A DNA stretch of 64,000 bases from Sipunculus nudus (taxonomy: Eukaryota; Annelida; Sipuncula; Golfingiida; Sipunculidae), in assembly GCA_026874595.1 (NCBI GenBank), contig CM049319.1:14721601-14785600 (forward strand). The letters are read 5' to 3'. The translations under genes and the position numbers were made by a program. Shown here one piece after another: positions 1,148-37,900 of this stretch (position 1 is the stretch's first letter; each line of letters begins with the position of its first letter). The notes under the pieces were generated by a model. The model was not told where the DNA came from. It made no database searches and saw nothing but the letters and a program-made list of their open reading frames with translations.

Positions 1148-3190
1148 TCAAGACTTTCTATTTTTCAATGCTTTTAATCTCTCCCTCAAACGTTTAAGTC
1201 CACGAGCTTTGATTGACAGACCGTATTCATCAACAGGAGTGTCTGAGACGAGGATCTTCGGTCCGTCATCTTCTGATTTAGAATTTGGTGTGCTGAAGAA
1301 CAGATCTTTGATATTAACACGCAAAGAGCACCTTCTTAATCCCCCTGGTGTCAGTTTGAATGAACTTCCGAGTTTCTCGGAGGATAGTGGTGTAAAACCT
1401 TGCGAAATGGGTTCCTTACTGCTGTTGGAAGAATCAGGACATTGACTAGCTTTTGGCTCCATCTGGTGATTGGGGTTTTCATCACTGGACCCTACACTAG
1501 GATCATCATCAGCAGACTCTCCACATGTACCCGTCTGGTTAACCAATAGATATGATTGATCTGTGTTAAATAACTTGCGTTTAGGTCTCTCTGAGCGGCC
1601 CCCTCTTGGTCTGCCTTGCGTGGACAAAATTGATGATGCACCATTTGGGGATAACTCTAAATTGACAGACCCATTAACAGGGGGCTCTTCACGATTACTC
1701 AAATCTGTTATATTTGATACTGTAATATTATCACTAGAGGTCTCTGCTGATTTTTCATTTTTCTGCAAGTTCGAAGATTTTTTATCACAAGAAGGTGAAT
1801 CTTCCTCACTGCTAAGATTAAAATTTATTGCATGCAGTTTAGAAGCTCGACTTTTCTCTTTCGCCTTATTTTTCTTCCTTCGTGTCCTAAGTATTGGCAT
1901 TGCTATATCATTATCACCACTTTGTATGGATGCGTTGTTTTGCTCTTGAGCTGCTGACTCGGCATTCAGTTGATCTTCTGGGTTTTGAGAATCCACAATG
2001 GATATTTCCTGTATTGGAGATGGTGGTTCTGGTGATTTTTCACCAATGAATTTAAGTGCAGGAAATGCAATATTACGTGTTGGACCACATGGTGCACTGA
2101 CATTATGACCAGATTTGTTCCTAGAACGAGTCACCACTGATGTGCTGTTTAAGCGTTTTTTCTGCCTTGTCCGCCGAGCGCTTGCTGTAACACCTTGAAA
2201 CTGAGGGGATACCTGAGAATTAAAAAGAGAAATACAAAAAAATCAAACAGAGTTGAATTCACACCGAATTATCAAATGGATTACAGCTCATTATAGGAAT
2301 TAAGTGGCAAGCCCAGGTGGTCAAGTGGTTAGTGCATCTGACTAATGATCTGTTGATCAGTTTGTCTATACAACTGAACCAAGTGGGGAGCACATTTGAC
2401 TAATGAACCAAATGGTATGTGCATCAGATTCAGAATACTTAAAGCTAGTTAGTGCATCTGACTACAACAGCAGTTGTTAGTGCATCTGACTACTAAACCT
2501 ATATGATTAGTGTATTTGATAAGTGAGATAGCGATTAGTTCATATGACTACTGTCTACTGAACCACTGATATCCACCTGACACCTGAACAGGCAGCAAGT
2601 GCATCTGACTATTGCACCAGTGGTAAGTGCATCAGACCACTGAACCAGTGGTGATTGCATCAAACTATTGAACTGTTGATTACTGTATCTGACTACTGAA
2701 CCAGTGGTTAATCCATCTGACTTCAGAAGCAGTGGTTAGTTCATCTGACTACTGAACAGGCAGTGAGTGTATCTGATTGCTGAACCAATAGTTATTGTAA
2801 CTGACCACTGGAACAAGTGGTTTTAACTGACTACTAAACCAGTGTAGCATACTAATATGGCTGTTCTGGGTCCATGAATGTGGCTCCTTACACCCATATG
2901 TTAAATGTTCAAGCAGAATCTTCGGGAGTAATGGTTTCTGTTTATTGCTTGCAAGACTGTGTTTAACAAAATCTGTGTCTAAACAACTGATACATGCTCC
3001 TGCCAAAGATAAGAAATCTTACCCATAACGCACTTGCATCTTCATCGATAGGAACCACATCTGCAGTTGGAGGGTGATCATTTGCATACACAGGTGATGG
3101 ACAATTTCTCAGGACACTGACAGGACTCTCTGTAAACCGCAGGGCAGGCTTCCTGTAGCTCACAGAGTTCTTTCTCCTCCGCCCTGGCAT
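1148..3190 (-). CDS. RHNO1: RHNO1, 9-1-1 clamp-interacting checkpoint protein (2 coding exons)
   Basis: Coding exons are 3190-3023 (56 codons) and 2212-1148 (354 codons plus stop), joined in phase 0 (TGG|gtaaga ... tctcag|GTA), giving 410 aa. Human RHNO1 is about 238 aa; the extra length is a serine-rich, low-complexity middle. What matches: a basic start MPGRRRK (human MPPRKKRR); LWVSPQF at residues 55-61, against human SWVSPDF at the same numbers; and a tail DGPKILVSDTPVDEYGL followed by a basic helix, against human GPVLVKDTPEDKYGI. In vertebrates RHNO1 binds RAD9-HUS1-RAD1 and TopBP1 in the nucleus and promotes ATR signalling; the SWV motif is needed for clamp binding. Basic stretches around residues 68-78 and 385-410 could be nuclear signals. 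An acceptor (tatatgcag) lies 10 bases before the ATG, so a 5' non-coding exon is expected. FOXM1 diverges from it. The assignment rests on remembered motifs, not a search. Confidence 0.88.
2305..2860 (+). repeat. Degenerate tandem array with a tRNA-like head in the RHNO1 intron
   Basis: About 20 imperfect copies of a short unit (roughly 25-40 bp) with the core TTAGTGCATCTGACTACTGA and a linker like ACCAGTGG. The left-most copy begins GCCCAGGTGGTCAAGTGGTTA, where TGGTCAAGTGG (2318-2328) fits a Pol III A box. This suggests the array grew from the tRNA-derived head of a SINE. No good B box or cloverleaf was found, so it is not called a tRNA gene. Confidence 0.6.
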
Positions 3191-5356
3191 GTCTGGTGAC
3201 CTGCATATACAGGAGGTTTCAGTGCTACAGAACTAGCAAATTTAAATTTAGGTCTATTAATTGAAGGGCAAAGTTGGAGTTGTCCAACTCATGATGGAAC
3301 ATTTCAGTATATTCATGTAAATTAAGATTCTGGCTGTGGCAATAAGGAATACAGCCTTGTTAAAACAGGTTTATCATAAAATATTGTTGTCAGTATGTCA
3401 CTGCAGGTTTTGCAAAATAGCTTAAAATACATAAAGGGTACATCCTAACCAATTAACCAATTTCATATGAGAGAACACACATACATACATACATAAACAG
3501 GTATTTGGAGTGCATGTAGCAAAAAATGATTTGGCAGTTCATGTTGTTTGTTGGCCATAATTATTTAATTTCATCTGGATTTAAATTGACTCATTTTATT
3601 TTTATTACTTTTGGCATAACTTCATGATGAAATTGAGTGCACAGATGAAAATGCCTGACCCAGAACTTGGAGTGCAATTGCTGACATGAGATTGAGAGGA
3701 TCATTTTGGTTATGCTACATCCAGGCCCTAATTTTAGGGAACAGGGGATACAAGCCACCATCCTCGAACTTGTTATCTCATTAAAAAGACAAGGGCTTAA
3801 TGATAAATGGATCTTTATCCAAAATAGGTCAAAACCTGTAGCTAATAGCTTTTAAATATGACCTATGGATATGATAATATTCATTAACATGATAATCCTT
3901 CGGAAATCTACAATTTATCAAGTCAGCAAGGTTAAGGAGACAGACATGTGAGTTAGCCTTGTTTTACTATGAACAAAAAAAAAAATTATACATGCCAGAT
4001 TAAATACAGACTTAAGTTAAACCCAAGTCATATGAACGATTAATTAAACATTTTTAACTTATGGCACCAGTTATAGCCATGTTGCCTGATATTAACATAA
4101 CAAAAACATACAGAGTGGCACCAAGTTACACAGCCCCTGAAATACCCAAAACACCAGTGGTACATAGCGAATACTGAAAATATATATATACTTTCACACC
4201 TGTAGCTTTGTTTGCATGCTGTAAAATGGTACAAAAATTGTGCTATCTGGCACTGATTCATACTTTTTCATAAATTTTTCAGATAATTTCATACTTTTTC
4301 TTGTAAGATTATATACATTTTCCTTTAAAACCACAGTGAAAGCACTGTAAATTATCATCTGATGAATACATCTGTGCAGTCATGTAGCATGACTTTGTAA
4401 ACAAAATTTCAAGTACTAATCTTAATAGCACCCAGTGCCACCAGAAGGCAGCACCAGTGCTGTCATAAGTGGCTACAAAAACAGCCTGCAATAAGACAGC
4501 CCTGTTGTTTGAGCTTATTTAATAATTTAAAAGTATGTTAAATAATGTACAGATACATTCCATAGATGATAACTCAACAAATGATACCAATTTTGGGCTT
4601 TGAATTTGACAATATGGGTTTTCATGATGTTGCATGATAGGTACCAGGGGTTTCAGGGGTACAACACAATGCAACCACCTTTAGAACCCCTGAAAGTGAA
4701 AGTGGTTTTATTACCTTGCTGTGGTCATACATGACCAGTCATGCTCAGCCAAAACCTTGAGACATTGTTGATTTAGGCATATGGTAGTAGTTTGTCAGTC
4801 AAAGAGGTTGCTGCCCAAAGAGATCTCACATACTGTACACCCATCAAACATAACCTGAACATGTCAAACATGGTTTAAGTGACATCACATTTGAGCATGT
4901 TGTACTTAATGTCTGTTCATGACAAAGGACTGGATGATCTACATATTATGATACTAGTATTGATCAGTCCAAAATTAGTCATTCTACTGTAGATATCATC
5001 CACAGATTATACATGGCTAAGTTTAACCAGTCACTGATTGATGAAGTTTCATTCTTCGTAAATATGCCCTAACCACAGAGAAGAATTAATGAAAGAGACT
5101 TAGTAGGGGTACAGTATTTACTGTGGACAGTGTCTGGTTCATAATTTACAATGAGGTCCAAAATAAATATTATCCTGAGAAGCTAGAGATAGTAAACAAA
5201 TTCCTGTTTTTACATTCATAGTTCATATCACCATGTTATATGGTGGTTATGTTATTATTGCTATTGCATCAATTGTTATATAACTTCTTGGATTTTGAAA
5301 CTTAAAGAAAACATTTTCAAGTGCATGATTTGTAAAGTGCGAAATATGTTAATGTA

Positions 5357-5447
<91 letters not shown>

Positions 5448-6500
5448 TGTTATTATTCTTAATTCATTTAGTTTTCCTTTACAAAATATAAGCATTTAAT
5501 AAAGCTGAAATGGCCCTTAATAGGTTTCAATGGTATGTAAATATTTCCTAATGGTTGTTCGAGTGGGACAAAGTAAGCTTTTCCATGGGAACAGAATGGA
5601 CCTCAGCCTCTTTCAGAACTCTTGCTTTTAAATTACATGTTTTCAAAGCCCACTCAGGACCGTTCAAACTAAAAAAATGTGACTGTAATAAGTGTGTCAA
5701 AATGGAGCTTTTCACTTTTAGCAAGTGTTATTAATGATTTCAGTGGCAGCTGAGTACTGAAAATCTGAGTGGTTTGGAATTGTAAAACTGACAACAATTT
5801 TCTTCATGCTTTGCACTTTCTTATCTGGATCAAATCAGGAATTGATTTAAAGAAATTCTTACTATTTATTTTTCTTTCCTTTTTTCTCAGGCTTGACACA
5901 GATAAAAGACATTCATTAAGTGTAACAACACCCTTTTTATCAATAATAATATTAAGGAACATTTTTTCATTCATTCTTGGAATGGTATACATAAAAGAAT
6001 ATACAATAGTTACTCAGTAACATACACATGCACCACATTTAACATTATCATCTGATTATAGACAGCACCAGAAAATGGTAATACACTGGTCAATTATTTC
6101 AGATCGATATATGGATTCTGCCCAAACCTTTAGCAAATATTAAAATACACACATGTACTACAAGTACGTATATCAGGACGTCCATATAGTCTACTGTCTG
6201 GAGCATACAATTATAAATTCCATTTTTCATCTTGAATAGGGGGTTAGTGGTGCGAGTATTGATAAACCGGTGCAGATATTGATTATTTTAGACCTGCCCC
6301 CTCCCGGTCCAACAGCTGAACATGGGTGACAGTCTAATATTAGTAATAAGGTCCTATTGTAAGTCAAACACTGCATCCGCCCAACAACCAGTTACAACAG
6401 GTCAACAGCGGGTCGACCCTTTCTCAATTCACGAACTTGGCTTGTGCGAAATCAGGCCACAATATAATTATCATAAGTACACACACCTGACGTATGGAAT
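3191..6500. other. Non-coding stretch between RHNO1 coding start and candidate promoter
   Basis: No coding exon recognised. If the promoter at about 6.7 kb is right, this is RHNO1 5' UTR intron. It has a (CATA)n tract near 3481 and the long (AT)n tract listed separately. Open frames are short and show no similarity. Confidence 0.5.
5359..5442. repeat. (AT)n microsatellite
   Basis: An uninterrupted AT dinucleotide tract of about 42 units. Confidence 0.98.
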
Positions 6501-6539
6501 GTCACGTGTATTTAAGACATGACCTCAGTACTTCAGGCA

Positions 6540-6850
6540 GGTTTGTTACGCTCATATAGTTGACAGGAATGAATCGCGTGCCCAATCTTGTTGACAACTT
6601 CGTTTAAAGGGGGCTGACATCTTGCCGTTTCCAAGGCCTAAATGTTTAGTGCACGCTGATTTGACATTCTAAATATAGCAGGCCAATCGCATTTCATTTC
6701 ACATTGGGGCAAGTCAACGAAATCCCGTTTCACCTCTCGCGAGGGCACCAACTGCCATCTGATTGGCTCCATTGTCTCCGGGCTCAAATTTTGAACATGG
6801 ACGGGGCACCTGTCATGGCCACTGGCAGATGACAGCATATGGATAATTTT
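6540..6850. promoter_or_regulatory. Candidate bidirectional RHNO1/FOXM1 promoter
   Basis: A small GC- and CpG-richer island between two divergent genes, each of whose first coding exon follows a splice acceptor. It holds CCAAT at 6683-6687, inverted CCAAT (ATTGG) at 6703-6707 and 6762-6766, TCTCGCGAG at 6735-6743 and a CHR-like TTTGAA at 6790-6795, about 23 bases from the nearest CCAAT. NF-Y boxes next to a CHR are the known layout of DREAM/MMB-controlled G2/M promoters. TCTCGCGAGA is a known motif of TATA-less, often bidirectional promoters. Start sites and the 5' exons cannot be placed from sequence alone. Confidence 0.5.
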
Positions 6851-7390
6851 GGAAACCCCCGTTTAGAAGATCCTACCGGCCACCTCGTAGGCTCCTCTTA
6901 GTATAAAGGTAATCATATTACTGACAAATCTAATTTCAGTGTTTAAAATACTGGTAATATGATGTCTAGACAAGCGATATATCCGAGCCCCTGAAAGCCC
7001 GCCGTCCCATGAGCCTGTCACAACATGAACGGTGGGCAAAGTCACATACCAGCTAGTTGATAATTCAGTGTTATTATCTGAATGAAATTAACCTCCCTAT
7101 GTGCCCTATATATTGCAAATCTATAGTAAGATGTAACCTGATTATCACATTTCATGCATCAGAATTCAAGTTTCTTAATATTTCTTGGAATAAGAATTCT
7201 AGCCTTGCAGAAGTCAAAACTCGAGGGAATAAAAACTGTCATATCACATGACCTCAGTGATAACAACTATAGGTTGGTTGTTTGCTTCATGTTATACCAA
7301 TATATTTGGAATGATCATGAGTCTATTTTATTAATCATTAGGTTGTGTGATATGTTAGTTTGATGTTGAAGTTTTTATTTATGTATAGCC

Positions 7391-10190
7391 TATAGGGTCA
7401 TTCAATGTCAAATTGACAAAAATTAAGAAAAAAGGTTGCACCCACCATCTCAGAATTGCTCAAGATTTTTTATCCAATTCTTGATACATTTGACTGAGAA
7501 TCCTGAAATATTGGCTTCAAAGACTCATTCCTGTCATTTTTATAGGTCTACAAAATTGGAAGGGTCACCTTTCTTTAATTTCCGCCTGTAATTTTTCTAT
7601 TTTTTAAATCAATATATCTTCAGAACAATTTAAGATACCCCTCTGAGATTTTCAGGACTTTAAATATGCATTAAGTGCAAAATGTCATATGACAAAAACA
7701 GAGTGTAAGACAAATACTTTTCATATACCAGAGCATATAAAACTGTAAAAAAAATCTGGCGGGTTCCGATTTAAAAAAATAACAACCAAAATGGATAGCA
7801 GAGACATCATAACTGGCTCAGTGGAAGAGAATAAGACCTTAAGCAAACATCTGTATAAAGTAGGTGCTTGAGGTATTGTTCATAATCCTCTAATAAGCTC
7901 TGAATACCAGATGTCAACCAAAAATGACCATTTTTAACCTAAAATTATTATATGTTTCCAAGGTTGTATCAACTTCATCTCTAATATAATATATAACCTA
8001 CATTTCTGCTTCCAAAAAATGTAAACAACAATCTTGGTTCAGCCTGTCAACATCTTGAAACTGGAGTACTAAATATGTGTAGGTATTTCAAGTGGTTTTT
8101 CTGTCGTCAGCAAATCACAGTCAAATCTATAAATCAAAACTTGGTAACTGTTTTATTAGCTAGAACAGTGACCTGACACCAAATCCATGTTTTAATACAT
8201 GTTTGGCGTGTGACAATTTTTAGCCCATATGAGATATCATGTATGCTGTTAAATTTTTTTTAGAGAATTAACTGATTCGAAAACTTTGCTTTATTCAAAC
8301 TAAATTTTCTCCAAGTGTACATGGTTGTATCTTTCTCAAACTTTTATAGAATGAAGGCTAACATAAAGCCTTTAGAATAAACACAAAATGCAGTATGGTC
8401 CAAGATTCAAATATATATTATGACATGTACTAATAGAGGTGTATTTGATTTTATTTTTCAGCATAGAACACACTGGGGATTCTCTGTCCCGTTCACGTTT
8501 GTTTCCTTAAAAAGCACTGGCATCACAAGTGTTCCTTCCTGGACAACTGTATAACAGGCTATAACTAAATATATATACATGCATGTTATGTATTTACATA
8601 AACTTTTACCTCAAGCGTTGACCAAGATCATAATCAGGAGATATGTAAAATGTGAAATATATGAACTTTTTTATGGATCTCAGTCAATCATGCCAAGGCT
8701 AGCTGTTCTGACAATTTTACATGTATGTACTGTCTTGTCATATTCTGTCTCAAGAAGATTCACTATCTTGCACAAACATGACATATTTACTGTCTGAAAA
8801 CTACTACCAACAACTTCTAGGTACCTCAAAAGCACTACCACCATGAAGTTAAGCTAAGAAGCACCGGATTCCACAAAATGGAGGTTTTAGCAACACCTAT
8901 AATTCATGAGAATATAAATTAAATTTAGGATGAATATTTAATAAAAATAATAAAAACATATTTGATATTTTTTTAGACTGATTTTCAACTATACCTTGCT
9001 ATCAGATCATCAATGCTTTCAATATATTTTAATCAGTGCAATAATAACCAAGAGCACATGTTCCAGTGATCATCTCATATAATACAACAGATTTGCAGTT
9101 TATTAAAGTATGCTAGGAAGTTCGAGAGATCTAAATTTTGATACGCCTGTACTTGATCTACAGCGCCTTTTGCAACCAGGACCTTTTTATGACAATCACT
9201 GGAGATAACTGCCAGGGTACCAATGTATATATTCATTAATTTAGACAAGAAAACCTGTATCACATTTTGATAGGGGGACAGAAGTCTCAATGATGTTTTA
9301 CATTTCACATAAATTTTATGAATTTTATCATGGTTGATGTTTTAGATAAAAATATAAAAATGGAAGAAGTAAATATAATAATTAATGTATGACCAGTCTT
9401 TAAAAAAATAATTTCAGTTGCTAGACAGTTGTCCTGAAAGGACTTTTGGTAATACCAGTGCCTTTGCAGCTGCAATCATAATAATTGGAGAAGAAATTCC
9501 AAGCCATTTCCACAATGAAAATGAGAAAAAACGCCTCTGGTAGTACATGGTGTTGGATAGGAATAAAGCTTGAACCAAAATTCGGTCTGTGTTTTTTAAA
9601 AGAACTTGTATAAGTGTTCAACATAAAAAAAAGTTTCAAAAAGATACAACCTTGAACACATGGAGAAAATCTGGCTTAAATATGATGAATTTTTGTAATT
9701 GTTGCATGTTTGACAGGCTCTCAAGCACTTCAACCGCATGTTTGACACCAAACAAGTAGAAGCTGACCTATAATGACAAAAGAATGCTAGGCTTATTGTC
9801 AAATAAAGTTATTTCATTTGAGAAACTTGTGTGATTTATCACACTTTTCATTTTATTGTAAAAATTTGTCTTGTTCTCAAAGGGGCTATATAATTAATAT
9901 ATACTGTGTACCTATATACATTTTAAAGATCCTGAAAATTTGGTGGGGTTATCTTTGATACTTTTTGAGTTATAATTATTGGAAATCTATAAAAAAAATT
10001 ACAGGCAGAATTTGATTAAAAGGACCCCTACCACTTCACAGGCTCCTAAACAACAAACCATTGGAGGTACAAAGCTGTAACTTTGGGTTTCCCAATCATT
10101 TTCACCCTTCTCAATGCTGACAAAAAATTGAGACAATTTGAGATGGTGGTGCAACCACCTTTTGTCTATTTGACATGGTATGGCCCTATA
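7391..10190. mobile_element. 2.8-kb non-autonomous element with long diverged inverted ends
   Basis: The left arm (about 7391-7690) reappears reverse-complemented at about 9885-10190. Outer ends read TATAGGGTCATTCAATGTCA and, inverted, TATAGGGCCATACCATGTCA. Inner matches include GCCTGTAATTTTT and ATTTTCAGGA. The interior has no open frame above about 77 codons and no transposase was recognised. It would lie in intron 1 of FOXM1. Superfamily is not assigned; a TA target duplication is possible. Confidence 0.6.
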
Positions 10191-10600
10191 AATTATTTTT
10201 ACATCCTATTAATACAGCACAAAATTTTACAGTTAATTACAAATTATGGTATTAACTTTACTTGTGCCTTCCGGCCTGATAAAGTGTGACTGGGTGTTTG
10301 TCAGGTCAGAATAGGTAAACTTTACACCTGATAACCAGATTAGATAGTGATAAATTATCATCACTACACACACATTGCTCCAGATAACAACTTTAATTTA
10401 TGTCAGACTATTATTTATGGCTACAAAAGTTTTGAAATTATTATTGGAAAGGTTAACGTTTACCTGTAGTATTATCATGAGTGTGTCTTTCAGTACTTTC
10501 AAAATTTATTTTAATCAGACTAATACAGGACTTTTAATAATTATTTTGATTATGTGCATTTGGATAATGTTTTGAGATGGCAAAATCTGCTCACTTTCAG
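10191..10600. other. AT-rich end of FOXM1 5' intron
   Basis: Only AT-rich sequence is seen, ending in the acceptor tcactttcag at 10600. Confidence 0.5.
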
Positions 10601-10610
10601 GCCTACAGCC

Positions 10611-13600
10611 ATGGACATATTGGTTGACAGCCCCGGAACAAGCATTCATGCCTTGGGTGATATTGACCTGACTGACAGTTCTGACTTTGTGATGAAACAT
10701 GAGGCACATATTGACCACACAGAAGAAGTACTCGGTTTCAGTCCAGGATTGGTCTCCACACCAAAGAGTGCATTGACAGAACATGATTACTTTGTGAAAA
10801 AGGAAACCACTCATGATGAACCATGTCCTGGTTATTTTAAGAGCACAGGGGGTGCAGGGAGTTCTGTACCTGTTAGAATGACCACAAAACCTGATCACTT
10901 GTCAAACATGAATACTGTGCAGCAGCTTTCCGATGGTCACACAATCAGACAGTTCATAATGGTAGGTCCGGGGGAAGACCCATCAACAAAAGCCAACCTA
11001 ATCCTTGAAAACATCACAAAAAATCTGAACCAACAGGCTGAGGAGAGTCTTGCACAAGGTCACACTCCTGTCAAAGAGACTGTAATAGAAATTACCAGCA
11101 TAGCACCATCAGACACTGCTTATTTTTCCAGGGACAATGTTTTGAAAAAACAGCTGCAGAATCATTTGCATGGCCATCTGGGGAGGAAGTTACGAAGTCA
11201 CACTGCCACACGTCCTGCTGAGGAAGTTACCCCACCCCAGATTCAGTTTGAACGTGACTGCTGCACCCCACCTAATTTGCTCACAACAGCCACTGCCTCA
11301 CCTGTGTTCAGCCAGCGCATCATCTCAGGAGGTCCCACTGCCAGTGATGTCACCGCCAGCCAACACCAATATGTACATAAGGAGCCGACCAGCTCCACTG
11401 CCATGGACCAGAGTATTGCAGACACTTCACAAGGTTTGTCACCAATTAAAATGACAGAAGAGCTAGTCAGCCAGGAATTAAAATAAAGAACCAAACATTT
11501 TACTATAAACTTTATTTATTTATATGGATTGTTCAAGTAGCTATAATAGTTAATACAGTAAAACCTTACCTAATGACTACTTCATTTTAGCAATCACCTC
11601 AAAATAATGACCACTTGTTCAGTCTCAATCTTTTTTTCTTTTTTTTTTTTACATAAGACCTCACTTAGACAACCATCTAAAAAATGCACCACTTTATATA
11701 GCCCCTTTAATGGTCATCATTTCAAGGTTTTATTGTACAAGCACCCTGTAAAGCCCTAGAATATATATATTAGTAATACCAGCAGATATGAGCATTATTT
11801 TACTTATGAGGAACTACTAATAATCTGCTAATTTCTAAAATTTAAAATTCCAGTTACCGGTAAATTTTCTTTTCTGCAGATGCTGCCAACAGTTCCTTGA
11901 CCAACTTTAGCTGGCTAAAAATGGATAACCTTAAACTAGAGAATATACAGCAGGCCAACATCCAGCACCACCAGCAGCTAGAGAAAAAGAAGGCAGAGAC
12001 AGAGGCCAAGAAGGTAACAACAGGTCTCCTGACATAAGACCATAAAATGTTGTTTACAGATTGCCCCTCCCATTTTTGGTGGATCAAACTTTTTCTTTGC
12101 AAATGAAGTCCAGGTCCTTGGTAATGTTGGTGATATGTGACTGATATGGCACAATTCTCTTTAAGAAATCCAAGCGATGGAACACAGACCAAATTTTATT
12201 GTTTAACATATGTATACCATTTCAAAGAATTGAGGTAATTTTTTTTATTTTCTGTGCAAGCTGGCAAAATTCCACTTCAAATGTCTCCGCCATTAAATAA
12301 AAAGAGAAAAAATCAGCTTGTTAGCATCATATTTATTGTTCCCAGAGTCTGTAGAAGAATAAATTTTTTTAATGACCTTGCCATGATAAACTATTTTTTT
12401 TTAAAGCTATACATGTTAAAACAATAAATAATAGCTGTAGCACATCACCTCTAATGTACGATAGAGTGAGGTCCACATAAACCTGAGCAGAAATAATTAA
12501 AACTGTGTGTTCATGAAAAACTGAAAAGTGCTAAAAAATTATATTTGAAATTAATAAGAAAATATGTAAACAGAAAAGAGAATTTGAAAAAGAAAACTTC
12601 TGGTCCCTGATTTTGTTTAGAAATTTTCCAACTTTTGTTCTAAAAGTTTCTTCGTCTTTTATGCATTTAACCTGCAAAGAGTGACTTTAGGCAGTCTTAT
12701 TTACATATTATTTTAAACAATCACCATATAATGACATGTCAGGGGATTTCATGCAGGATATAATATTACAAGTTTTTTTTATGTCTCTTAATAAAATAAG
12801 TAAAAATAATATATGTCACATGAGTAGGTAAAAGACTTGAGGATTTTTTTTTTCAGAAGAACAAGGAATGTGTACAAAACCAGCGGCCACCATACTCCTA
12901 CATGCATTTGATTCAGATGGCTTTGAGTAGTCGGCCTGACCTTCGTATGACCCTGAAAGAAATATATCGCTGGATCGAAGATACATTCCCTTTCTACAAG
13001 CACACATCAAGACAAGGGTGGAAGGTAACTTGAATAGATGCAAAGTAAAACTTGCTGTGTGCTACTGATATTATTCTTGCAGGACTTCTGCTGAATCTTA
13101 TATTTCCTGTATTTTCTTATGAAAAAAATGTCTCCTAAAATTTCCTATATTTTCCAGCATTTAGATTGCAGTCTTCTAAAACTTTACATTGGTCAGTCGT
13201 GTTTCTGATTTTTATCAAATGATCATCAGATAAATCAGCTTAAGGAAATTTCTTTAGGAGCTTGGAAGTTTGAGGGAGTCCTGTGCTTGCTTTTTATTAA
13301 AAAAAATAAGAAATTTACAGTTCATAAGCTGAATTAGGACTAAGGTTACTCTTTGTTCCTCTTTAATTCATGATATTTCAAAGTGTGAGACTGTAGATTT
13401 CTTTTAAGAACATCATATATTAAATACTCATTTATAAATTTGGGTTTTATAATGTATATATACTTGTTTTCTTGATAATGACACCTACATATAATATGCA
13501 GAAAATGACAGAATATTAAATGTTGTGTTTTTAACAGAACTCTATCCGACACAACCTGTCATTGTATGACATCTTCGTCAGAGAAAAGAATCTCAAGCCA

Positions 13601-16600
13601 GGAGAGACCACTGTTTCGTTCTGGCGTCTCTGCCCAGAGAAGGCCAAAGAAGGAAAAGGTGGCCTTCATTCTAGTAAGTTCTTGTCAGGGTTTGGGTCAA
13701 ATACAGTTTGCCAAACACAAATACAAATATGCTATGTCGTATTGACCAAATATAAATACAAGTGAGCGATGCTTAATACAAACACAAGGCATCAAATATA
13801 AATATGCAAATAACTGGTTGTGCAGAAAATAAATTCCTTTCAGTACCACAGATATAATTCATGTGTACTCTTAATGTATACTGGTATTCATGTACCAGAG
13901 TTCTTAATCACATAATATTGTCACTACAAAAAGGGACTGTTGCATTGAATAAACAGACACTGGAAGCTGTTACTTGAGTTGTTCAGGAATTAGGTAGTAA
14001 ATACTTCAGTTTAATTTAGTAAAATGCTAGATGCATTGAGCATGTGTCAGATATGGATATATATTTGTACAGTATTTGATCAAATACATCAAATATTGAG
14101 ATCAAACACAAATATAAATACATATCATATCTGTATTTAAAAACAAATATGTATTTGACCCCATCTCTGGTTCTTTTTAATGAACCAATGATAAAATTGA
14201 TGTTTCTAGTAGAAAGTAATACTGTTCTGTTGTAAAATAAATTAGTATCATATAATATTATTGATCCAGGTAGGAAGTGATATAATTGTCTTATAAAATA
14301 ATAAAACTGGTATTACAGTTATCACACTACTTGTATTACTGGTATTACATCCTATATTATATAGGATCATTAGAATAATCCAATAAGAGATTGTCCAAGA
14401 TAAAAGAAAAAGATGAATATAAAACTGATTTTACACTTACTGTGGTGTTACTTCCTGAAGTGGAAAAACGTTCTTAAACAATATCAAGTGAAAAAAATGT
14501 GTTATAAATTCAAATAGCTGTAATAAGTTCTACATAGTGTTAGGAACCTTAGACTTTAAACATTGTATTTAGATAAAAACCTGCAAAAAAAAATAAACAC
14601 ATCACATAAATTGATTTTGTTGTTTTGTAGGTCTCAAAAGGCTAGCTGCTCAGAGCCAGGCTAGAGACAATTCTACAGAGTCACAGAAAGACCGGAGCGA
14701 TGAAGAGGCAGCCAAAAAGAAAGGTATTGATATATATCAGGTTCACTCACTTAAATATTGTGTAAAAAACTGGAAAACATGTTTTTTCATCAAGATGTTT
14801 TGCGAGACATGTGCTTGGCCACTGACAAAAAACACTGAGGCCACTGACAGGAAACGTGGCGGCTGCTATTAAATGCATCCTTTCTGTATGAAAATCATCC
14901 ATATTTGGCATAATGATCAATACAGTGACATGATACTATTACAATAATTGACTGCATCGTGGTGTATCAGTGCTATGTGAAATTTTGACATGTTTATTCC
15001 TTCTTTCAGCCCCACAATTATTGCTGCCAAAGATCAACCAAGCATCAGTTACAGCCAGCCAGCAAAACATACAGGCCTATGCAATCATACCAATTCAAGG
15101 AGGGGTGCCAATCATTCCAACTCAACCAATCATGGTTACTCCTACCTTCCAGCTGTCAGGCACTTCAACATCTGAGGCCCAACCCACTTTTACTCTTAGC
15201 TCCGCCTCCACTGGTTCTGAACCAATGACTGGACAGGAGAAAATGGTTCAGAAATCAAGCACTGGTATGCTCTTTTATTTTATTATATTTTTTTAATTAG
15301 GTTTAAAAAACTTATGAAGTCCATACAGAAATGTCATGAATTTTATATCAAGAAAGCCCATATTAAAGCACATATTGGTATGTTCATAATAACATATTCA
15401 TTAACTAACTGTATAGGGCATGATTCTATATTGCTCAATTATTTTGTACAGGCAGTTGAAGGATCATGACTACAAACATTAAAGCCATACTGAGAATAAC
15501 CTGTATTATTTATTATTACCATCTAACTACATGTCTTAAATTTACAAAAACAACAACATTATCCATATCCTTACTTAAAATAACAGCATAACAGTAACAG
15601 TATATTGTAGGTTTTGTATTTAATATGAAATATAACTATTTCTAAAAGTTGAAGTGGTTCAAGCAAGTAGATTGAAAAGTTTTTCTCTCTTTCAGTATCA
15701 GCTGATCAAGGATCAAGGTCAACCCTAAAGCGCTATCACAGCCAACCAGTGACCTCTGGTGGTCCCAACAGGAAGCATGTAAAGATTGCACCAAAAGTTA
15801 ATGTGATTGACGAGAACAGTTTAGTGAGCCAAGCCTGGCTGAACTCCTCGCAGGGGCAGTCCAGTTTGAACACTACAGACCTGGGACAGCAGCTGTCAAA
15901 AATGAAATTTGATTCCAGTGTTGATTCCATCCATAGAAGTTACTCTGATTCAGGAATCGAGTGTAGTAAATCAAGTGATGATACCAGTAGTGATTTAATA
16001 TTGAGCCAAGAGGAGGTTCAGCTAAAACGAAGTTTGTCTCAAGTGGTGACTGGGTTGCCAAAACCAAAAATGTACAACACATCAGGGCGGACTACACCTG
16101 CTATACTGAGACGTCAGCGCCCCCTGGTGAAAGCTACTGCAACTAGAGTGAGGCGATCACCCAGGCATAAACCAACTAAGGGGGCACACAAAGCTCGTAA
16201 ATCTGAGTTGGGCGAGTTGACAGCCTCCTCCCCATCGTTCCCATCCAGCACAACGAAACGTAAAGACCCGATTGACATAGCAGCCAGCTTAATGGAAAAT
16301 ATGTCATCACCCATGCAGCGCCTCTTGTACACACCACCCAAGAAAACGAGAGGACCAAGCACTTCAACTCCATCCAATCCTGCCAACAGAAGCATAGACT
16401 TTATATCCCCCATCAAGGGTTTAACTCCGCTGGGCGGAGAAAACAGTTTGTTTGACAGCGGAATATTCACTCCAGTAGAGGCAAAGGGATTAAAAACAAG
16501 CACTCCATGTCGTAACGAATTCACTCCAGAATCGAAAAATCAGTGCACTCCGCCAAGCAATAAAATATCGCCTCGCCCAGGATCTCTACGAGATTTGGGG

Positions 16601-16810
16601 CTGCCCGGGTTGACACCCCTGAAAAGTACATTCCCAGGAACCAGTTTGACTCCAAATAAATCCCCGCTCTCTCTGGCTGCGCTGGGTGACCATGAGAGTT
16701 TGAACAATCAGAGTTTCACCAAACTTTTGGGTGACTTTCATATAGACAGCCTCATGGAAGAGAATACATCATTCAACATCAATGACTTGAGTTGGTCGAT
16801 GCTCCAGTGA
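10611..16810 (+). CDS. FOXM1: FOXM1, forkhead transcription factor M1 (7 coding exons)
   Basis: Coding exons: 10611-11433, 11880-12013, 12857-13024, 13538-13673, 14631-14723, 15010-15264, 15696-16810; all junctions are GT-AG and phases close to 907 aa (human 763-801). The start is the ATG in GCCATGG, 10 bases after an acceptor. Order: N-terminal region with RQFIMVGPGED (human FILISCGG); SSLTNFSWL near residue 280 (human NSLSNIQWL); forkhead domain about 329-415 with RPPYSYM, WIEDTFPFYKH, WKNSIRHNLSL and VSFW; RKHVKIAPKV near 562 (human KRVRIAPKV); a long SP/TP-rich region; and a C-terminal activation segment at about 873-907 ending INDLSWSMLQ (human DNINWSQFIPELQ). FOXM1 drives late S and G2/M genes, activated by cyclin-CDK and PLK1 and working with B-Myb-MuvB. 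The N- and C-terminal matches set it apart from other Fox classes. Confidence 0.95.
12857..13673 (+). CDS. FOXM1: FOXM1 forkhead DNA-binding domain (exons 3 and 4)
   Basis: Exons 12857-13024 and 13538-13673 encode the winged helix. The intron falls between WK and NSIRHNLSL, inside the conserved start of recognition helix H3, and is phase 0. The helix residues N, R, H and N-L-S are all present, so DNA binding should be intact. The wing carries an insertion (NLKPGETT) relative to human FOXM1. Confidence 0.95.
15947..15967 (+). other. Possible beta-TrCP-type degron in FOXM1
   Basis: Residues 621-627 read DSGIECS, followed by an acidic Ser/Asp stretch. This resembles the DSG-phi-x-S phosphodegron, but with one extra residue before the second serine. 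Function is inferred from motif only. Confidence 0.3.
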
Positions 16811-25900: not shown

Positions 25901-28900
25901 GGAAACTTCTCCTACTGAGCAATTCTTCTATTACAGACACAACTCCTCTGTATTATGGACAGCTCCCTATTACAAACAATTCCCTATTTAAAACAAATCT
26001 CCAATCCAATATGGGCAGCTCTCTGTTACAGACACCCCTCCAATAAAGTCACATCTCCATTCTATTACAGACCCCTCCTATCATGGGCACCTCTCTATAA
26101 CAGGCACACCTCCACTCTATTATACTTAAGTTATAGCCATCTCCCTTTTACTTAAACTTCTCTATTACAAACAGAGTTATTATATATGCATTACCTGTTG
26201 GAACATTGGACAGTGTACTGAAAAAATGCTTTTCTGTGACAATATGAGCCTAAACAACAGTAATCTATGAAATTGTGATATCAGTATAACTATATTCTGT
26301 GTATAATTAGTTACCTGGCATTGCATGTCACCATGGCGACCAGTTTGCCGTCTGCTGAGATGGCTGGCCCACCACTAGCACCAGCATGTACCATACATGT
26401 AGTCTGTAACAAATACAGTGAAACCTGTCTTATGGGACCGCTCAAATGGTGTGTGTACTGATGATATTTTCATTCATTTTCATACAATATTTGAATGTTA
26501 TCAAAAATATTAATTGCATTATTTTATGCATTCAGTCATAAAAAACCCATTTTTATTACTAATATCAAAATATTTTACTTATTGAACACACTGCACATAA
26601 TCAGCTTGAAATCTAAGCCCTACAATGCACCAGGGCTTCTAAATACACCATAACATAGGTATAACTGTGGTGAAGATTGTAATGTAATCTGTTCAAATAT
26701 GTTGGATGAGAATTGTTGCATGGCATATTATATAAACATGGGTGTTTTTGTGGTAAGTACTTCATGGTATAAACAATATTTTGTAAGCATGCACATGTGA
26801 TGTAACAGTAAGTGTTTCCTTGAAATTAACAAATTAAAATTCTGAAGTTTGACAGTAGAGACAAGTAGTACCATAAAAATCCCCTAAATTCCAAACTGGA
26901 AGATGATTGTTTTCAGTCAAAATGACCTCTGCCAGATAGGGTTGCTTACTGAAATAAATCCTGAATCTATAAAATGGGCAATCAACAACTGCAGGAATCC
27001 TCCAAATCACAGAGGCATAGGTAATATATATAAGGCATTGAATGTTCCTGACATGAAATGACACATTTGTGGCATCAGATATGCCAAAGTATCCCAAGAC
27101 AGATTGCTGGACAAAACTAAACAAAATTTTCCAAGATGGATAAATTTCTAAATTTCAGGCTGATACATAGTAAAACTCTTCATATATGTGCAATTTTCAC
27201 CAAAAACAGATAGATCTACAGATGGATACAAGATGAAATTGATTGTAGGTGGACCAAGCAGTCTTGTGTACAAGATAATCCATACCTTGCAAATTTTAAG
27301 GTGTATACATCATACCACTCCTGAGAAAATGGCAATATATATATATTCTTTGAAAACAAAAAGGTAAATGGCACCCCCTTTCTTGTCTATGATGGATCAA
27401 TGCTATATGAAAACAATTGTAGGTGGTCACCAGGCTTTTGTACAAGATGGAGGTATCCAAAATAAGTGGACATGTGAAAATTCAGGCTGATATATTAAAT
27501 CATTCCTGAGATAAAAGCATGAACATATTCTAGAAATACGTGATTGCAGGTGGCGCCACTAGTCACATGAATAAGAAATCTACCCGAGAAGGATGAACAA
27601 GCAATATTTTAGGCCGAGACACCAAACGACTAATAAAAAAAGTGCATCAATGTAGTCTACAAAAACGGAATGGCAGGTGGCACCACCTGTCTGGTCTGCA
27701 ACAAAGTAATCCAAGACAGATAAATGTGCAAAATTTCAGGTTGAAACATTCATTAGCTCCTGAGATATGATTGATTTTCATCCAAAGCCAATGGACGAGG
27801 ATGGACACCACACAAGAACAACTGCAGATGGCACCACCAGTCATGAGTACAAGATTAAGGTATCTAAGATCAACAAAAACAGGGAGGTAGGTGGCGCCAT
27901 CTGTCTGGTCTATGAGATAGATGGACATGCCAAATTTCAGACCAATACATTGAACCACTCCTGAAACATGAGTGATTTTCACTCAAAGCAAACTCATGGA
28001 TAGATGCCCCACAAATATGATTAATGATGGCACCATCAGCAATCAGTACCAGATGAAGGTATCCATCTATAGACATGCACAATGTCACCCAAAAACATTG
28101 AAACAATCACTAAAGACCAGTTTACATGGTGCAATTTTTCCTTATGACAGTCACGTGTGACTGTGGTATGCGACAAAATCACCCCCATGTAAACTGACTG
28201 TATGACACTATTTTCTGTTGCACGCACTCACTTGCAATGATGTATGAACATCACAGCTGCTCTATTTCATGCAATTTTTTTTTGTGATTTTGGCAAGTGA
28301 AACAATAGGAAAGTGAATATGATTGCCTACCTTTGAGTGATGAAGTTGTTGTGACACAGGTTGCACTGTGTAAACTGACAGTCACATATGTGACACAAAA
28401 TCGCAAGCTATAATCGCATGAGACTGTTGTAAGGAAAAAAACGCAACATGAAAACTGCCCTTTAGAAGAACAGATGGCAAATGCAAGGATGGAAGCCACA
28501 CAGAAATGATTATAGGTGGCACCACCAGTCTCCAATACAAGAAGGAGGTATCCAAAATCTATTGACATGCACATTTCAGCCAAATACTTTGAATCACTCC
28601 TGAGAGTAGTACCATAAAAATCCCCTAAATTCCAAACTGGAAGATGATTGTTTTCAGTCAAAATGACCTCTGCCAGATAGGGTTGCTTACTGAAATAAAT
28701 CCTGAATCTATAAAATGGGCAATCAACAACTGCAGGAATCCTCCAAATCACAGAGGCATAGGTAATATATATAAGGCATTGAATGTTCCTGACATGAAAT
28801 GACACATTTGTGGCATCAGATATGCCAAAGTATCCCAAGACAGATTGCTGGACAAAACTAAACAAAATTTTCCAAGATGGATAAATTTCTAAATTTCAGG

Positions 28901-31900
28901 CTGATACATAGTAAAACTCTTCATATATGTGCAATTTTCACCAAAAACAGATAGATCTACAGATGGATACAAGATGAAATTGATTGTAGGTGGACCAAGC
29001 AGTCTTGTGTACAAGATAATCCATACCTTGCAAATTTTAAGGTGTATACATCATACCACTCCTGAGAAAATGGCAATATATATATATTCTTTGAAAACAA
29101 AAAGGTAAATGGCACCCCCTTTCTTGTCTATGATGGATCAATGCTATATGAAAACAATTGTAGGTGGTCACCAGGCTTTTGTACAAGATGGAGGTATCCA
29201 AAATAAGTGGACATGTGAAAATTCAGGCTGATATATTAAATCATTCCTGAGATAAAAGCATGAACATATTCTAGAAATACGTGATTGCAGGTGGCGCCAC
29301 TAGTCACATGAATAAGAAATCTACCCGAGAAGGATGAACAAGCAATATTTTAGGCCGAGACACCAAACGACTAATAAAAAAAGTGCATCAATGTAGTCTA
29401 CAAAAACGGAATGGCAGGTGGCACCACCTGTCTGGTCTGCAACAAAGTAATCCAAGACAGATAAATGTGCAAAATTTCAGGTTGAAACATTCATTAGCTC
29501 CTGAGATATGATTGATTTTCATCCAAAGCCAATGGACGAGGATGGACACCACACAAGAACAACTGCAGATGGCACCACCAGTCATGAGTACAAGATTAAG
29601 GTATCTAAGATCAACAAAAACAGGGAGGTAGGTGGCGCCATCTGTCTGGTCTATGAGATAGATGGACATGCCAAATTTCAGACCAATACATTGAACCACT
29701 CCTGAAACATGAGTGATTTTCACTCAAAGCAAACTCATGGATAGATGCCCCACAAATATGATTAATGATGGCACCATCAGCAATCAGTACCAGATGAAGG
29801 TATCCATCTATAGACATGCACAATGTCACCCAAAAACATTGAAACAATCACTAAAGACCAGTTTACATGGTGCAATTTTTCCTTATGACAGTCACGTGTG
29901 ACTGTGGTATGCGACAAAATCACCCCCATGTAAACTGACTGTATGACACTATTTTCTGTTGCACGCACTCACTTGCAATGATGTATGAACATCACAGCTG
30001 CTCTATTTCATGCAATTTTTTTTTGTGATTTTGGCAAGTGAAACAATAGGAAAGTGAATATGATTGCCTACCTTTGAGTGATGAAGTTGTTGTGACACAG
30101 GTTGCACTGTGTAAACTGACAGTCACATATGTGACACAAAATCGCAAGCTATAATCGCATGAGACTGTTGTAAGGAAAAAAACGCAACATGAAAACTGCC
30201 CTTTAGAAGAACAGATGGCAAATGCAAGGATGGAAGCCACACAGAAATGATTATAGGTGGCACCACCAGTCTCCAATACAAGAAGGAGGTATCCAAAATC
30301 TATTGACATGCACATTTCAGCCAAATACTTTGAATCACTCCTGAGATTTGGCCTGTTATCACCAACACACAGATTCATACTGCACAAAAAGGATTGCAGG
30401 TTGTGCCACCAGTCTCTTTTAGGCAGCAGTTTGAATGTGACCTAATAAGTATGCTGCGTTTTGGAAAGATCAGTCCAAAGGTTCTCCAGAAAGAACATGT
30501 CAGCAGCAGTGGTGACAGAACCCTCGTGAAAACATAGTATCCGTAAAAATGTTTTAGCAGATGCAATAAGTCCATGCATGTGTGTGTGTGTTTTTTTTTT
30601 GCCTACCTGTACCATGACTGGTTTTCCACCACAGTTTGTCACTTTTGCCACGATCCCTCTAGACCAGGAGGGTGCCATGTCTTTCTCCCCAGTAAACAAT
30701 GCATGGCCCACCACTGTCACCCTCTGACCTGTAAAACGATTCAACCATGAATATTCATATCATGCATGAATATTCAATCCATGTCTGCTACACTTGCTGG
30801 AAGATCTTGGTTTTTATTATAGGAAAGGTGAATATTTACATAAATTTACTTCAGCAGTTGATATACCAGTATCTGAAAGACGTTTCAAGAACAGGGAACA
30901 CTAAACACTCACGTTTGAGAATTTAATTACCAACAAAATGTATATTCATAGAACCTGAAAATAATTAGGCAATAAAACAAGGCCTACAGGCCTAATGCGA
31001 ACCTTTGCATTTGAAAATACATTAGGTATAATGCTTCAATACTGGCCCATTACTTTTCAAGTGTATGAAAAATGCAAGTACTAAACATTTTGAATAAGAA
31101 ACAATTACACAAACATCACTGCTGAAATTCTGGCATGGGTGCACACAACACATTGTAATTGTAATTGGCACCACCAGTCTTGTATACAACAAAGCTATCA
31201 GAGATATATACATATGCCCAATTTCAGACTGATATATCAAACCCCTCCTGAGAAATAAGCAGGGACACACATTGTACAAAAATTATTGTTGGTGGCACCA
31301 CCAGTCTTGTATATGACAAAACTATTCCATATGGTATAACTATAATGCCCAATTTCAGGCTGGTTATATCAAAATTCCTCTGTAGAAATAAGGAGGCACA
31401 TACATTGTGCAAAAGTCACTGTAGGTGGCGACACCTGTCTTGTGAAGGAGAAAGCCATCAAAGACACATAGACAGGCCAAAATATCAGGCCACTACATCA
31501 AACTTACCTTGAGTCTGATGCATGGGGCTGACCAGGCTTAGGTGAGAAAGGCAGTTGCCCCAAGTGAACTGTGACAAATTGCTAGCTCAGGCTGCTGCAC
31601 TGAGTGAACTCATAACCTGCACCTGGCTAGACTGAGTGAACTTTTGACCTGTACCTGGCTGCACTGAGTGAACTCTTGACCTATTGCATAATCTGACACA
31701 GTGGGCAGTCTGCCAATGCTATAAATAGAACACAGCTACTGCATTGAGTGAACTCCTGACTTATACCTGGCTGCACTGAGTGAACTCTTGACCGGTTACC
31801 TAATCTGATACAGTTGGCAGTCTGCTAAAGCTATAAATAGATCCAGACTGACCTTTGGCCTGTTGCCAAATCTGAAATAGTAGCCACATCATTGCATAAG

Positions 31901-34900: not shown

Positions 34901-37900
34901 AATGGGTTTCTGAGTAATAATCATCTAAGTGTTTTTCTATAATCTGCTCTAAAATGTAGAGAAATAGGTCAAGGTCACCCATCTTCGAACTTGACCTAGA
35001 TTTTGTCGATATACATCTTTACCGAGGAAATAAAATTCTGACGGTGAATCCTTTTCCAGATATCCTGCTCACAAGGTAAAAGTTAACGGATGCCGGACGG
35101 ACGGACGGACGGACAGCTTGGGTGACGACAATAGCCCATCAGCCTAAGGGCTGAGGGCTAAAAATCATTGCGCGAGAGTGATTTTTTATTACCTTTTATT
35201 GTATGTTTCGATAAAAATGTCATATGATCAGGGAAAAGCATGATAATAACAAAATTGTTCCGCTAAACAGGTAAAAAAAAAACATAACAAAGGAGATCTG
35301 ATCAAAATTGTATTATTTTATCTTCTTGAAAGATATGTCAAAGTGGCTGAAGCTCAAGATTGGTAATTTTATATTAGAAATAAAAATAAAAAATTTTTAT
35401 GCAGGGTGTTAAAAATTGACCCGTACGGTGCCAGAGAACCCTGCCTTTTTTTGGCCTTAACATTTTGATCCCGCCATAACATTTTGCTATAAACCTTGAA
35501 CCAACTTACAAAATCCTGCATCCCTGATATTTAAACATATTTAAAAACAACACTGAACACTGCATCAACTTCTCATGAATACAAATTTAAATATTGTTTC
35601 TGTATCCTATGATAAAAAATGTAAAACAGTAATATACATTTACAGTATTGTTACAGATGATTATAAGTTGGCAAAATTTAAAATATCCATCAATATTCAA
35701 GATTTCTACCTCTCCTGGGGTTCAGTTCTGGTCCATGTTGTTGAATGTTCCTGACATGTTGTGGTTTGTGTAGTTTAAGTACAGCAATATCAAATACTTC
35801 TCCAGCCTGTGATGCATAAACTATGTCTGCTGCAGTCCAGTGACGGTTTCCTAATTTGACTGCAGCTGAAATATGTATTAAGTATACATAAAAAGTGTTT
35901 GTGGAGATGGAACTGTCAACACTACATTTTTATAACTTCTGGGTGCTAAGAGTGTCCACAAAATGTTAAAAGCTCAAAAGTACGAGACAATAATGTACTT
36001 CTATTATTAATTAACTCTGGCTGGGGCACTGGTGTTCGGTTCATTAATATTTACTTCTTCTCAGCTCAAGATGTTGTGGTGTTCACATATATCCTATAAA
36101 TTGGCAGATTTTACATCGAAGACCCAGTTCAAGGTCACCCAGTTTTCAAAATGTTAAGATCTTGGTGGAAACAATTTGTGTGTCAAACTCCAAAAACAGG
36201 TGCAACACTCCAAAAGTTATGGTGTTCACAAAAATCCTATATATGAGCAGATCTGACCTTGAAGGTCAAGTTTGAGGTCACTGGTTTTCGACTCTTGAAA
36301 CAACTTATCATCTGACATTTTTCATTTTGATTTTCATTAAAAATACATATATCCACATGAGAAATTTAATGTTTTTTTTTTTCATCAAACATGGAAATAT
36401 ATAAGGTCAAGAAAACTCTGAGACAGCAGGACCATGCTAAAACCATATTATCCCCCAACTTGTTATAGTCGCCAGCCTAGGTCTGGCGACTATAGGCTAA
36501 TCGTCGTGTCTGTTTGTTTGTTGCTTGCCGGAAATCTTCGATTTTCGCAAGCTGGTTGGTCAGTCGCGGATGTCTGTTTGTTGCTTGCCGGAAATCTTCG
36601 ATTTTCGCAAGCTGGTTGGTCAGTCGCGGATGTCTGTTCGTCTGTTTGTTTGTTTGTCTGTCCAGTCTCTACAGGTCGCAATTTTCATCCCATCGCTTTC
36701 AAACTTTCACAGTTTGTGTAGAATCAAAAATGCAAGAAGCCTATTGTTTTTGGGCAATATAGGTCAAAGGTCAAGGTCAAGGTCATCAAAAGTTCCTAAA
36801 GTGCTCTTTTCTTCATATCTCCATTACTATTTGTCATAGCCACTTCAAACATGGCTCATTTTAATCGGCATTCCAAGGCCTTTCTTCTGATATATATGTT
36901 GCTGAAATCTGCTGTTTCTATGGTTACACATTTTGGGGGAAAACTCATGATTTTCGAAAATAAAAGGCCTACTTTTTCTAACTTTGTCATTTTTAAAGCT
37001 AGAGAGTTCTAGTTTTTTGCATCATATAGTACTAAATAAGCTTTTTATCATACCAGTGAAAGTCTCGTAAAATCTTGCACCATTTCTCGTCAAACGAGAA
37101 TTTTCGAGATTTCATTAAATATGGCTTACAGGTCGCATTTTTTAAACTATGACTTTGAAAATGACATATTTTGTGTTATTTAGAAATATCTCGAAACCAA
37201 TTTTTCATTTTTTGGAAATAGCCACCAGGGGGCGTGGTACATGAAACACTGTAACATATCATTTTTCTGCAATATCTCAAAAAATATTAAACGTGACACC
37301 ATTTTTTTGGTCGTATCTGAAACTAGGAACATTGGCTTATCCCTTCGCACATGTTGCTTTGTGCTGCCGTTACCATGGTTACCAAATTTTGGGGTAAAAC
37401 TTGACAATCTGAAAATTCGGAGTTTTCCAGCTTCTATCTCTGTTGATATTTGCGATAGAAAGGTCTGGTTTTTGGCGTTAGACAGCATCCCTCCAGTTCT
37501 AAGCCATTCAATCGCAAGTCTCCTCATATCTCGCACCGTTTCTCGTGAAACGAGAACACGTGACCATTCAAAGAAATGCCTATAATTCGTTCATTTTTCA
37601 CGCTACAGACACATGGCTTGCAGCGCCGGATAGCGGCTGACACTCGCAGTCACATTCAGGGGTCGCATTGTCAGTCTCGTCAAATCTCGCGCCATGTTTC
37701 ACCAAACCACGAAGTCACGTGCCGTCGCCGCAAGTGGCGGCAGGGTCCTTACGGTGGGCGGCCGGCGTGTGCAGCGGTGTGTGACGGCCTCGTCGGGCCC
37801 CATCTATGATCATACATGTTGGAGGCACAGTCACAACTTTATTGCTTGCCGGAAATCTTCGATTTTCGCAAGCTGGTTGGTCAGTCGCGGATGTCTGTTT

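Follow-up and report, generated by a model that had tools for sequence, protein, structure and literature searches.

The 64-kb stretch of the Sipunculus nudus genome analysed here (the window; C14:14721601-14785600 in an assembly that comprises 153 contigs and 1.43 Gb) carries RHNO1 on the minus strand and FOXM1 on the plus strand, as neighbours that point away from each other. We consider it probable that this is the orthologue of the divergent FOXM1/RHNO1 pair of vertebrates, inherited from a common ancestor, with one bidirectional promoter of CCAAT and cell cycle genes homology region (CHR) type at approximately 6.3-6.9 kb of the window. In human, the 5' ends of the two genes are approximately 150 bp apart, a 190-bp segment is active in both directions and the promoter activities correlate; E2F sites have been reported in this promoter, and the region is conserved in vertebrates (PMC8104967, eLife 2021). 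A study that puts the number of p53-p21-DREAM-CDE/CHR genes (CDE, cell cycle-dependent element) at 210 includes FOXM1 in its table of targets, together with C12orf32, as RHNO1 was first called (PMC4705690).

The gene models were built from the genomic sequence alone, without transcripts. RHNO1, at 1148-3190, has two coding exons (168 bp, or 56 codons, with the ATG at 3190, and 1,065 bp, with the stop codon at 1148) separated by a single GT-AG intron of phase 0 (junction TGG/GTAAGA ... CTCAG/GTATCC), and encodes 410 amino acids. FOXM1, at 10611-16810, has seven coding exons and six GT-AG introns that keep the frame, and encodes 908 amino acids; its stop codon lies at 16810. The sequence-only reading had recognised both genes by their motifs and described them as divergent neighbours, and the spliced models bear out this arrangement at the same positions, while both identities hold in profile matches of the spliced proteins, to RHINO and to the forkhead domain.

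For RHNO1, the spliced protein matched a single Pfam family in hmmscan, RHINO (PF15319), with 40.9 bits where the cut-off is 25 and E=3.2e-10; the match spans protein residues 1-129, and the motif-based recognition of the gene thus survives a profile search. The protein contains KPALRF (residues 14-19), WVSPQF (56-61), FPALKF (106-111) and ILVSDTP (376-382), in this order. In human RHNO1, 56-WVSPDF-61 binds RAD1 and 88-TSKFPHLTFESP-99 binds RAD9, both in crystal structures (PMC10937111), and K13/L16/F18 (K13-F18) form a second RAD9-type site in a computed model (PMC12907562). TOPBP1 BRCT1 is bound by human Thr202, a proline-directed Thr-Pro site that is preceded by hydrophobic residues at -5, -4 and -3 (PMC6175577). 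W56VSPQF61 thus shares its numbering with the human RAD1 site, KPALRF and FPALKF correspond to the human RAD9-type sites (the comparison covering K13-F18 and the equivalent of 88-99, with the further human contact G25-H28 outside it), and ILVSDTP fits the TOPBP1-BRCT1 phospho-threonine rule. The four motifs in order occurred in none of 200,000 shuffles of the RHNO1 residues. Taken singly, WVSP.F occurred in 2 of these shuffles, FP.L.F in 238, the TOPBP1 rule in 489 and K..L.F, a weak motif by itself, in 10,588; the patterns were set after the motifs of both proteins were known, and the counts therefore express rarity and not the outcome of a blind test.

That the minus-strand protein is some other disordered protein carrying these motifs by chance is an alternative that we regard as largely refuted and hardly credible. 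Its case would be that the RHINO match is limited to positions 1-105 of the 239 in the profile, that neither the protein nor a WVSP peptide found a match in the PDB (chains of at least 20 residues), and that the Pfam RHINO model, searched against the genome, gave no match and missed RHNO1 itself. This last result, which on its face weighs against the identification, arises because matching in that search goes exon by exon; a control likewise gave no match anywhere, and the hmmscan of the spliced protein was used instead. The RHINO E-value, above the curated cut-off, and the ordered set of human contact motifs both speak for RHNO1. A genome search with RHNO1 returned two matches in the assembly, both of them exons of the window gene, and no second copy was found among the best candidates scored, runs of N being outside the search; RAD1 matches are present on C7.

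The protein resembles the RHINO/RHNO1 family in its profile, in the WVSPxF RAD1 site, in the FPxLxF and KxxLxF RAD9-type sites and in the TOPBP1-type phospho-threonine motif, all of which are predicted sites here. It differs from human RHNO1 in length, with 410 amino acids against 238 (PMC12847792). The functional orthologue of RHNO1 in Caenorhabditis elegans, ZTF-8, is described with zinc fingers (PMC4199516), whereas the Pfam scan of the window protein found none. RHNO1 was termed 'found in vertebrates' in a structural paper of 2024 (PMC10937111), and metazoan homologues had already been noted in print (PMC6175577); the presence of RHNO1 outside vertebrates is thus already known and not new.

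The plus-strand protein matches the Pfam Forkhead model with 103.6 bits. When its spliced forkhead domain was compared with the PDB, the top three of the 46 matched sequences were FOXM1, at 104 bits, and the next FOX protein followed at 79 bits. The reverse comparison, of human FOXM1 with spliced forkhead domains of the assembly, placed the window domain first of 21 with a score of 262 (59% of 82 columns), ahead of 223 (51%, gap columns counted) for the best of the others; these were 20 of the 52 other forkhead places, the remaining 32 being mostly further copies from clusters on C8 and C9. When the human domain was searched against single exons, the window exon ranked only 39th of 53 by bits, because an intron splits its forkhead domain, although its identity to human FOXM1 (59% over 49 residues) exceeded that of the other places (at most 55%). 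No other forkhead in the assembly is more than 54% identical to the window domain. The intron in question (13025-13537, GWK/NSIRH) recalls the clade II Fox genes, in which an intron inside the forkhead domain is a rule with exceptions (PMC9539403), and the gene is thus like the FOXM class both in its closest forkhead and in its intron-split domain. PDB searches with both ends of the protein gave no meaningful match (one meaningless match had E 5.1), and conservation of the N-terminal repressor and C-terminal activation regions of the class is not visible in the PDB matches here.

Elsewhere in the assembly, frames with forkhead matches form two clusters, at C8:34.656-34.732 Mb (9 places) and C8:71.704-71.795 Mb (17 places, 4 of which carry one TAA inside the match). 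They resemble the foxQ2 expansions reported in annelids and molluscs (PMC9539403). A muscle myosin exon pair of the genome had its best PDB match in a myosin that we take to be from squid (296 bits), with cardiac-type myosins (294) and scallop myosin (283) close behind, a result that is at most suggestive of a mollusc; the haemocyanin beta-sandwich model of molluscs gave no match, and neither did its control.

Descent of the pair from an ancestor shared with vertebrates is strongly favoured: neither gene has a close second copy, and for such genes chance adjacency in the same orientation is most unlikely; by our own estimate, which assumes 20,000-40,000 genes, the same neighbour in the same orientation would be met by chance about once in 10^4 to 10^5. 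That the two genes were joined independently in the lineage of this animal, by chance or by convergence, is very improbable in our view, even though the linkage was examined in one non-vertebrate genome. Such an origin would agree with a survey of eight eukaryotes, in which bidirectional pairs were conserved only within vertebrates and reshuffled relative to invertebrates, and in which FOXM1 is not mentioned (PMC3403606). It would also agree with the wider neighbourhood, which is not conserved. Downstream in the window lies a trypsin-like frame, and the matches to TULP and TEAD are on C6; we take TULP3, TEAD4 and ITFG2 to be near FOXM1/RHNO1 in human. The survey and the location of TULP and TEAD both weigh against common descent of the linkage. 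ITFG2, by contrast, shares chromosome C14 with the pair (30.99-31.00 Mb, 16 Mb away), and this may reflect an old linkage group. With ITFG2 at that distance and TULP and TEAD on C6, the neighbouring genes seem to have scattered, whereas FOXM1 and RHNO1 have remained a divergent pair. The sequence-only reading had proposed that the linkage is ancient and not a mammalian feature. Its age is what adjacency and orientation strongly favour, while the contrast with mammals is slightly misplaced, since conservation of the promoter region in vertebrates (PMC8104967) and metazoan homologues of RHNO1 (PMC6175577) are already published.

The ATG codons of the two genes are 7.4 kb apart, and between the genes lies one CpG-rich segment. 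Among 137 sliding 600-bp bins in this interval, two, at 6301 and 6401, have the maximum of 24 CpG, and bins wholly outside 6000-7200 contain at most 6. The observed/expected CpG ratio at 6301-6900 is 0.72-0.77 and the proportion of guanine and cytosine (GC) is 0.44-0.49. We propose that both genes would start from one bidirectional promoter in this segment. Each may have a non-coding 5' exon inside the interval, because candidate splice acceptors precede the ATG exons: a candidate CAG acceptor lies 10 bp 5' of the ATG in the first coding exon of both genes, and the pyrimidine fraction of the 17 bases 5' of it is 0.53 in RHNO1 and 0.65 in FOXM1, compared with 0.53-0.88 for the seven modelled acceptors. 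Scoring of splice donors for such first exons gave candidates at minus 6487, plus 6908 and plus 7031, which are no proof. Comparison with Pfam of 36 of the 38 frames of at least 50 amino acids wholly inside 3233-10600 gave no convincing match (best E 0.0034, DUF2393); the other two were (AT)n frames, and frames below 50 amino acids were outside the scope. No match was found by Rfam in the window. The interval also includes a perfect (AT)42 at 5359-5442.

The arrangement is like the human pair and its FOXM1/RHNO1 bidirectional promoter (F/R-BDP, 12p13.33; PMC8104967) in that the same genes are adjacent and divergent with a CpG-enriched segment between them, and it is unlike the human pair in several respects that weigh against a shared promoter. 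The 7.4 kb between the ATG codons contrasts with the human intergenic span of approximately 150 bp, and part of this distance is an apparent repeat insertion. The segment, though CpG-enriched, is apparently no classical CpG island, given its low GC, and a search of 6000-7200 gave no E2F consensus. Further observations within the window count in the same direction. Bins of 600 bp that are just as rich in CpG are also present in other parts (17-36 kb, 16 of 369; repeats at 36-48 kb, 91 of 229; 48-64 kb, 15 of 309; 10.6-17 kb, 1 of 117), with none among 53 at 1-3.2 kb or among 189 in a separate locus (L002). The CCAAT-CHR composite was rejected as independent evidence, as ATTGG-N15-40-TTTGAA was found once in the window against 4.7 expected; there are 12 CCAAT-CHR pairs in any order and orientation, and 120-bp windows with at least three CCAAT boxes and a CHR also occur within the repeat, at 7441-7471. 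Finally, the acceptors are only candidates, and starts just upstream of each ATG may be used instead.

These points are the ground for a different account, in which the linkage is ancestral and the promoters are separate, repeat insertions having driven the genes apart so that no co-regulation is left. We find this account unlikely, although it is the one that the distance between the ATG codons, the composite at no more than chance frequency and the candidate status of the acceptors would suit best. The apparent interspersed element in the interval has long imperfect inverted arms that are approximately 60% alike. A genome search with its left arm (7380-7720) gave 16 matches, that of the window itself and 15 others on C1, C2, C4, C6, C8, C9, C11 and C16, and 10 of these 15 start at bases equivalent to 7390-7397 of the window; the right edge of the element was placed by the alignment of the inverted arms alone. 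Approximately 2.8 kb of the interval was therefore probably inserted, and the present distance says little about how far apart the genes originally were. The element sits between the CpG-rich segment and coding exon 1 of FOXM1, where it need not part the promoter from either start, and the single CpG-rich segment between the genes is likewise more in keeping with one promoter than with two.

Under the shared-promoter proposal, and by analogy with vertebrates, the promoter would be active in dividing cells through CCAAT boxes bound by NF-Y and a CHR element read by DREAM/MMB. Dividing cells, towards G2/M, would then make FOXM1 together with RHNO1, a co-expression that the arrangement of the two genes suggests. 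RHNO1 would serve in ATR signalling as the adaptor between TOPBP1 and the 9-1-1 clamp, which it would contact at RAD1 and RAD9. The genome contains a DIRP domain of LIN9 type, in a gene at 38.96-38.98 Mb of C14, the chromosome of the pair, and we take such a protein to be part of MuvB. A wider proposal is that one CHR/CCAAT, DREAM/MMB-controlled bidirectional promoter has been common to FOXM1 and RHNO1 since at least the bilaterian ancestor, and that sharing it kept the pair together in spiralians and vertebrates; for this we see the balance as even. The positions of the features discussed are collected in Table 1.

Table 1. Coding exons, repeats and putative promoter features of the RHNO1-FOXM1 locus (window positions).
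Feature	Position	Strand	Remarks
RHNO1 coding exon 2	1148..2212	minus	V57SPQF, FPALKF (106-111), ILVSDTP (376-382), stop
Minisatellite	2584..2844		28-bp unit, ~9 copies, 71% matches; inside RHNO1 intron (2213-3022)
RHNO1 coding exon 1	3023..3190	minus	MPGRRRK, KPALRF; ends with W56; candidate AG acceptor before base 3200
CpG-rich stretch, proposed shared divergent promoter	6301..6900		24 CpG/600 bp; putative function
CACGTG E-box	6503..6508	plus	one of 13 in window
Further CCAAT box	6683	plus	
Further CCAAT box	6703	minus	
CTCGCGAG palindrome	6736..6743	plus	sole copy in window (expectation 0.04); also present once in 4 of 100 shuffles
Inverted CCAAT box (ATTGG 6762) and CHR-type TTTGAA (6790)	6762..6795	plus	28 bp apart
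Apparent interspersed element	7359..10223		long imperfect inverted arms; CpG-rich stretch on one side, FOXM1 coding exon 1 on the other
FOXM1 coding exon 1	10611..11433	plus	candidate AG acceptor before base 10601
FOXM1 coding exon 2	11880..12013	plus	
FOXM1 coding exon 3	12857..13024	plus	forkhead domain, first part (to GWK)
FOXM1 coding exon 4	13538..13673	plus	forkhead domain, remainder (NSIRHNLSL...)
FOXM1 coding exon 5	14631..14723	plus	
FOXM1 coding exon 6	15010..15264	plus	
FOXM1 last coding exon and stop	15696..16810	plus	

Three further regions of the window were noted. At 51364-53963 on the minus strand, 2 of 30 scanned frames match Trypsin_2, one at 53088-53963 (E 7e-5, 24 bits, below the cut-off of 27.6) and a second taken as 51364-51675; together they resemble exons of a gene for a trypsin-like protease, perhaps TYSND1. 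The region 36400-47600 consists of CpG-rich repeated units with near-identical frames of 136 amino acids at 37183, 40950, 42211, 45329 and 46590, two neighbouring pairs of which are 1261 bp apart. An apparent local duplication at 26800-30400 includes identical frames of 111 amino acids at 27650-27982 and 29391-29723, 1741 bp apart.

Our results extend the vertebrate FOXM1/RHNO1 pair to another animal branch. The accessible parts of the literature treat the FOXM1/RHNO1 promoter as a feature of human 12p13.33 with conservation in vertebrates (PMC8104967). No report of the linkage outside vertebrates was found in the open-licence literature, as far as its accessible parts extend, and genome-wide catalogues may list the pair unremarked. 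A metazoan microsynteny catalogue, reportedly that of Irimia and colleagues from 2012, might already list it. If the pair is as old as the bilaterians, it would be a counter-example to the survey of reshuffled bidirectional linkages (PMC3403606), joint control of the two genes would be a long-lived constraint that is open to study in simple animals, and RHNO1, as an adaptor between 9-1-1 and TOPBP1, would belong to the ancestral checkpoint. The distant RHNO1 sequence also shows which parts are kept in a mostly disordered protein, namely four short binding motifs. If, in addition, the promoter has been shared since the bilaterian ancestor, the pair would constitute a regulatory unit that couples the activation of G2/M genes to the capacity of the ATR checkpoint.

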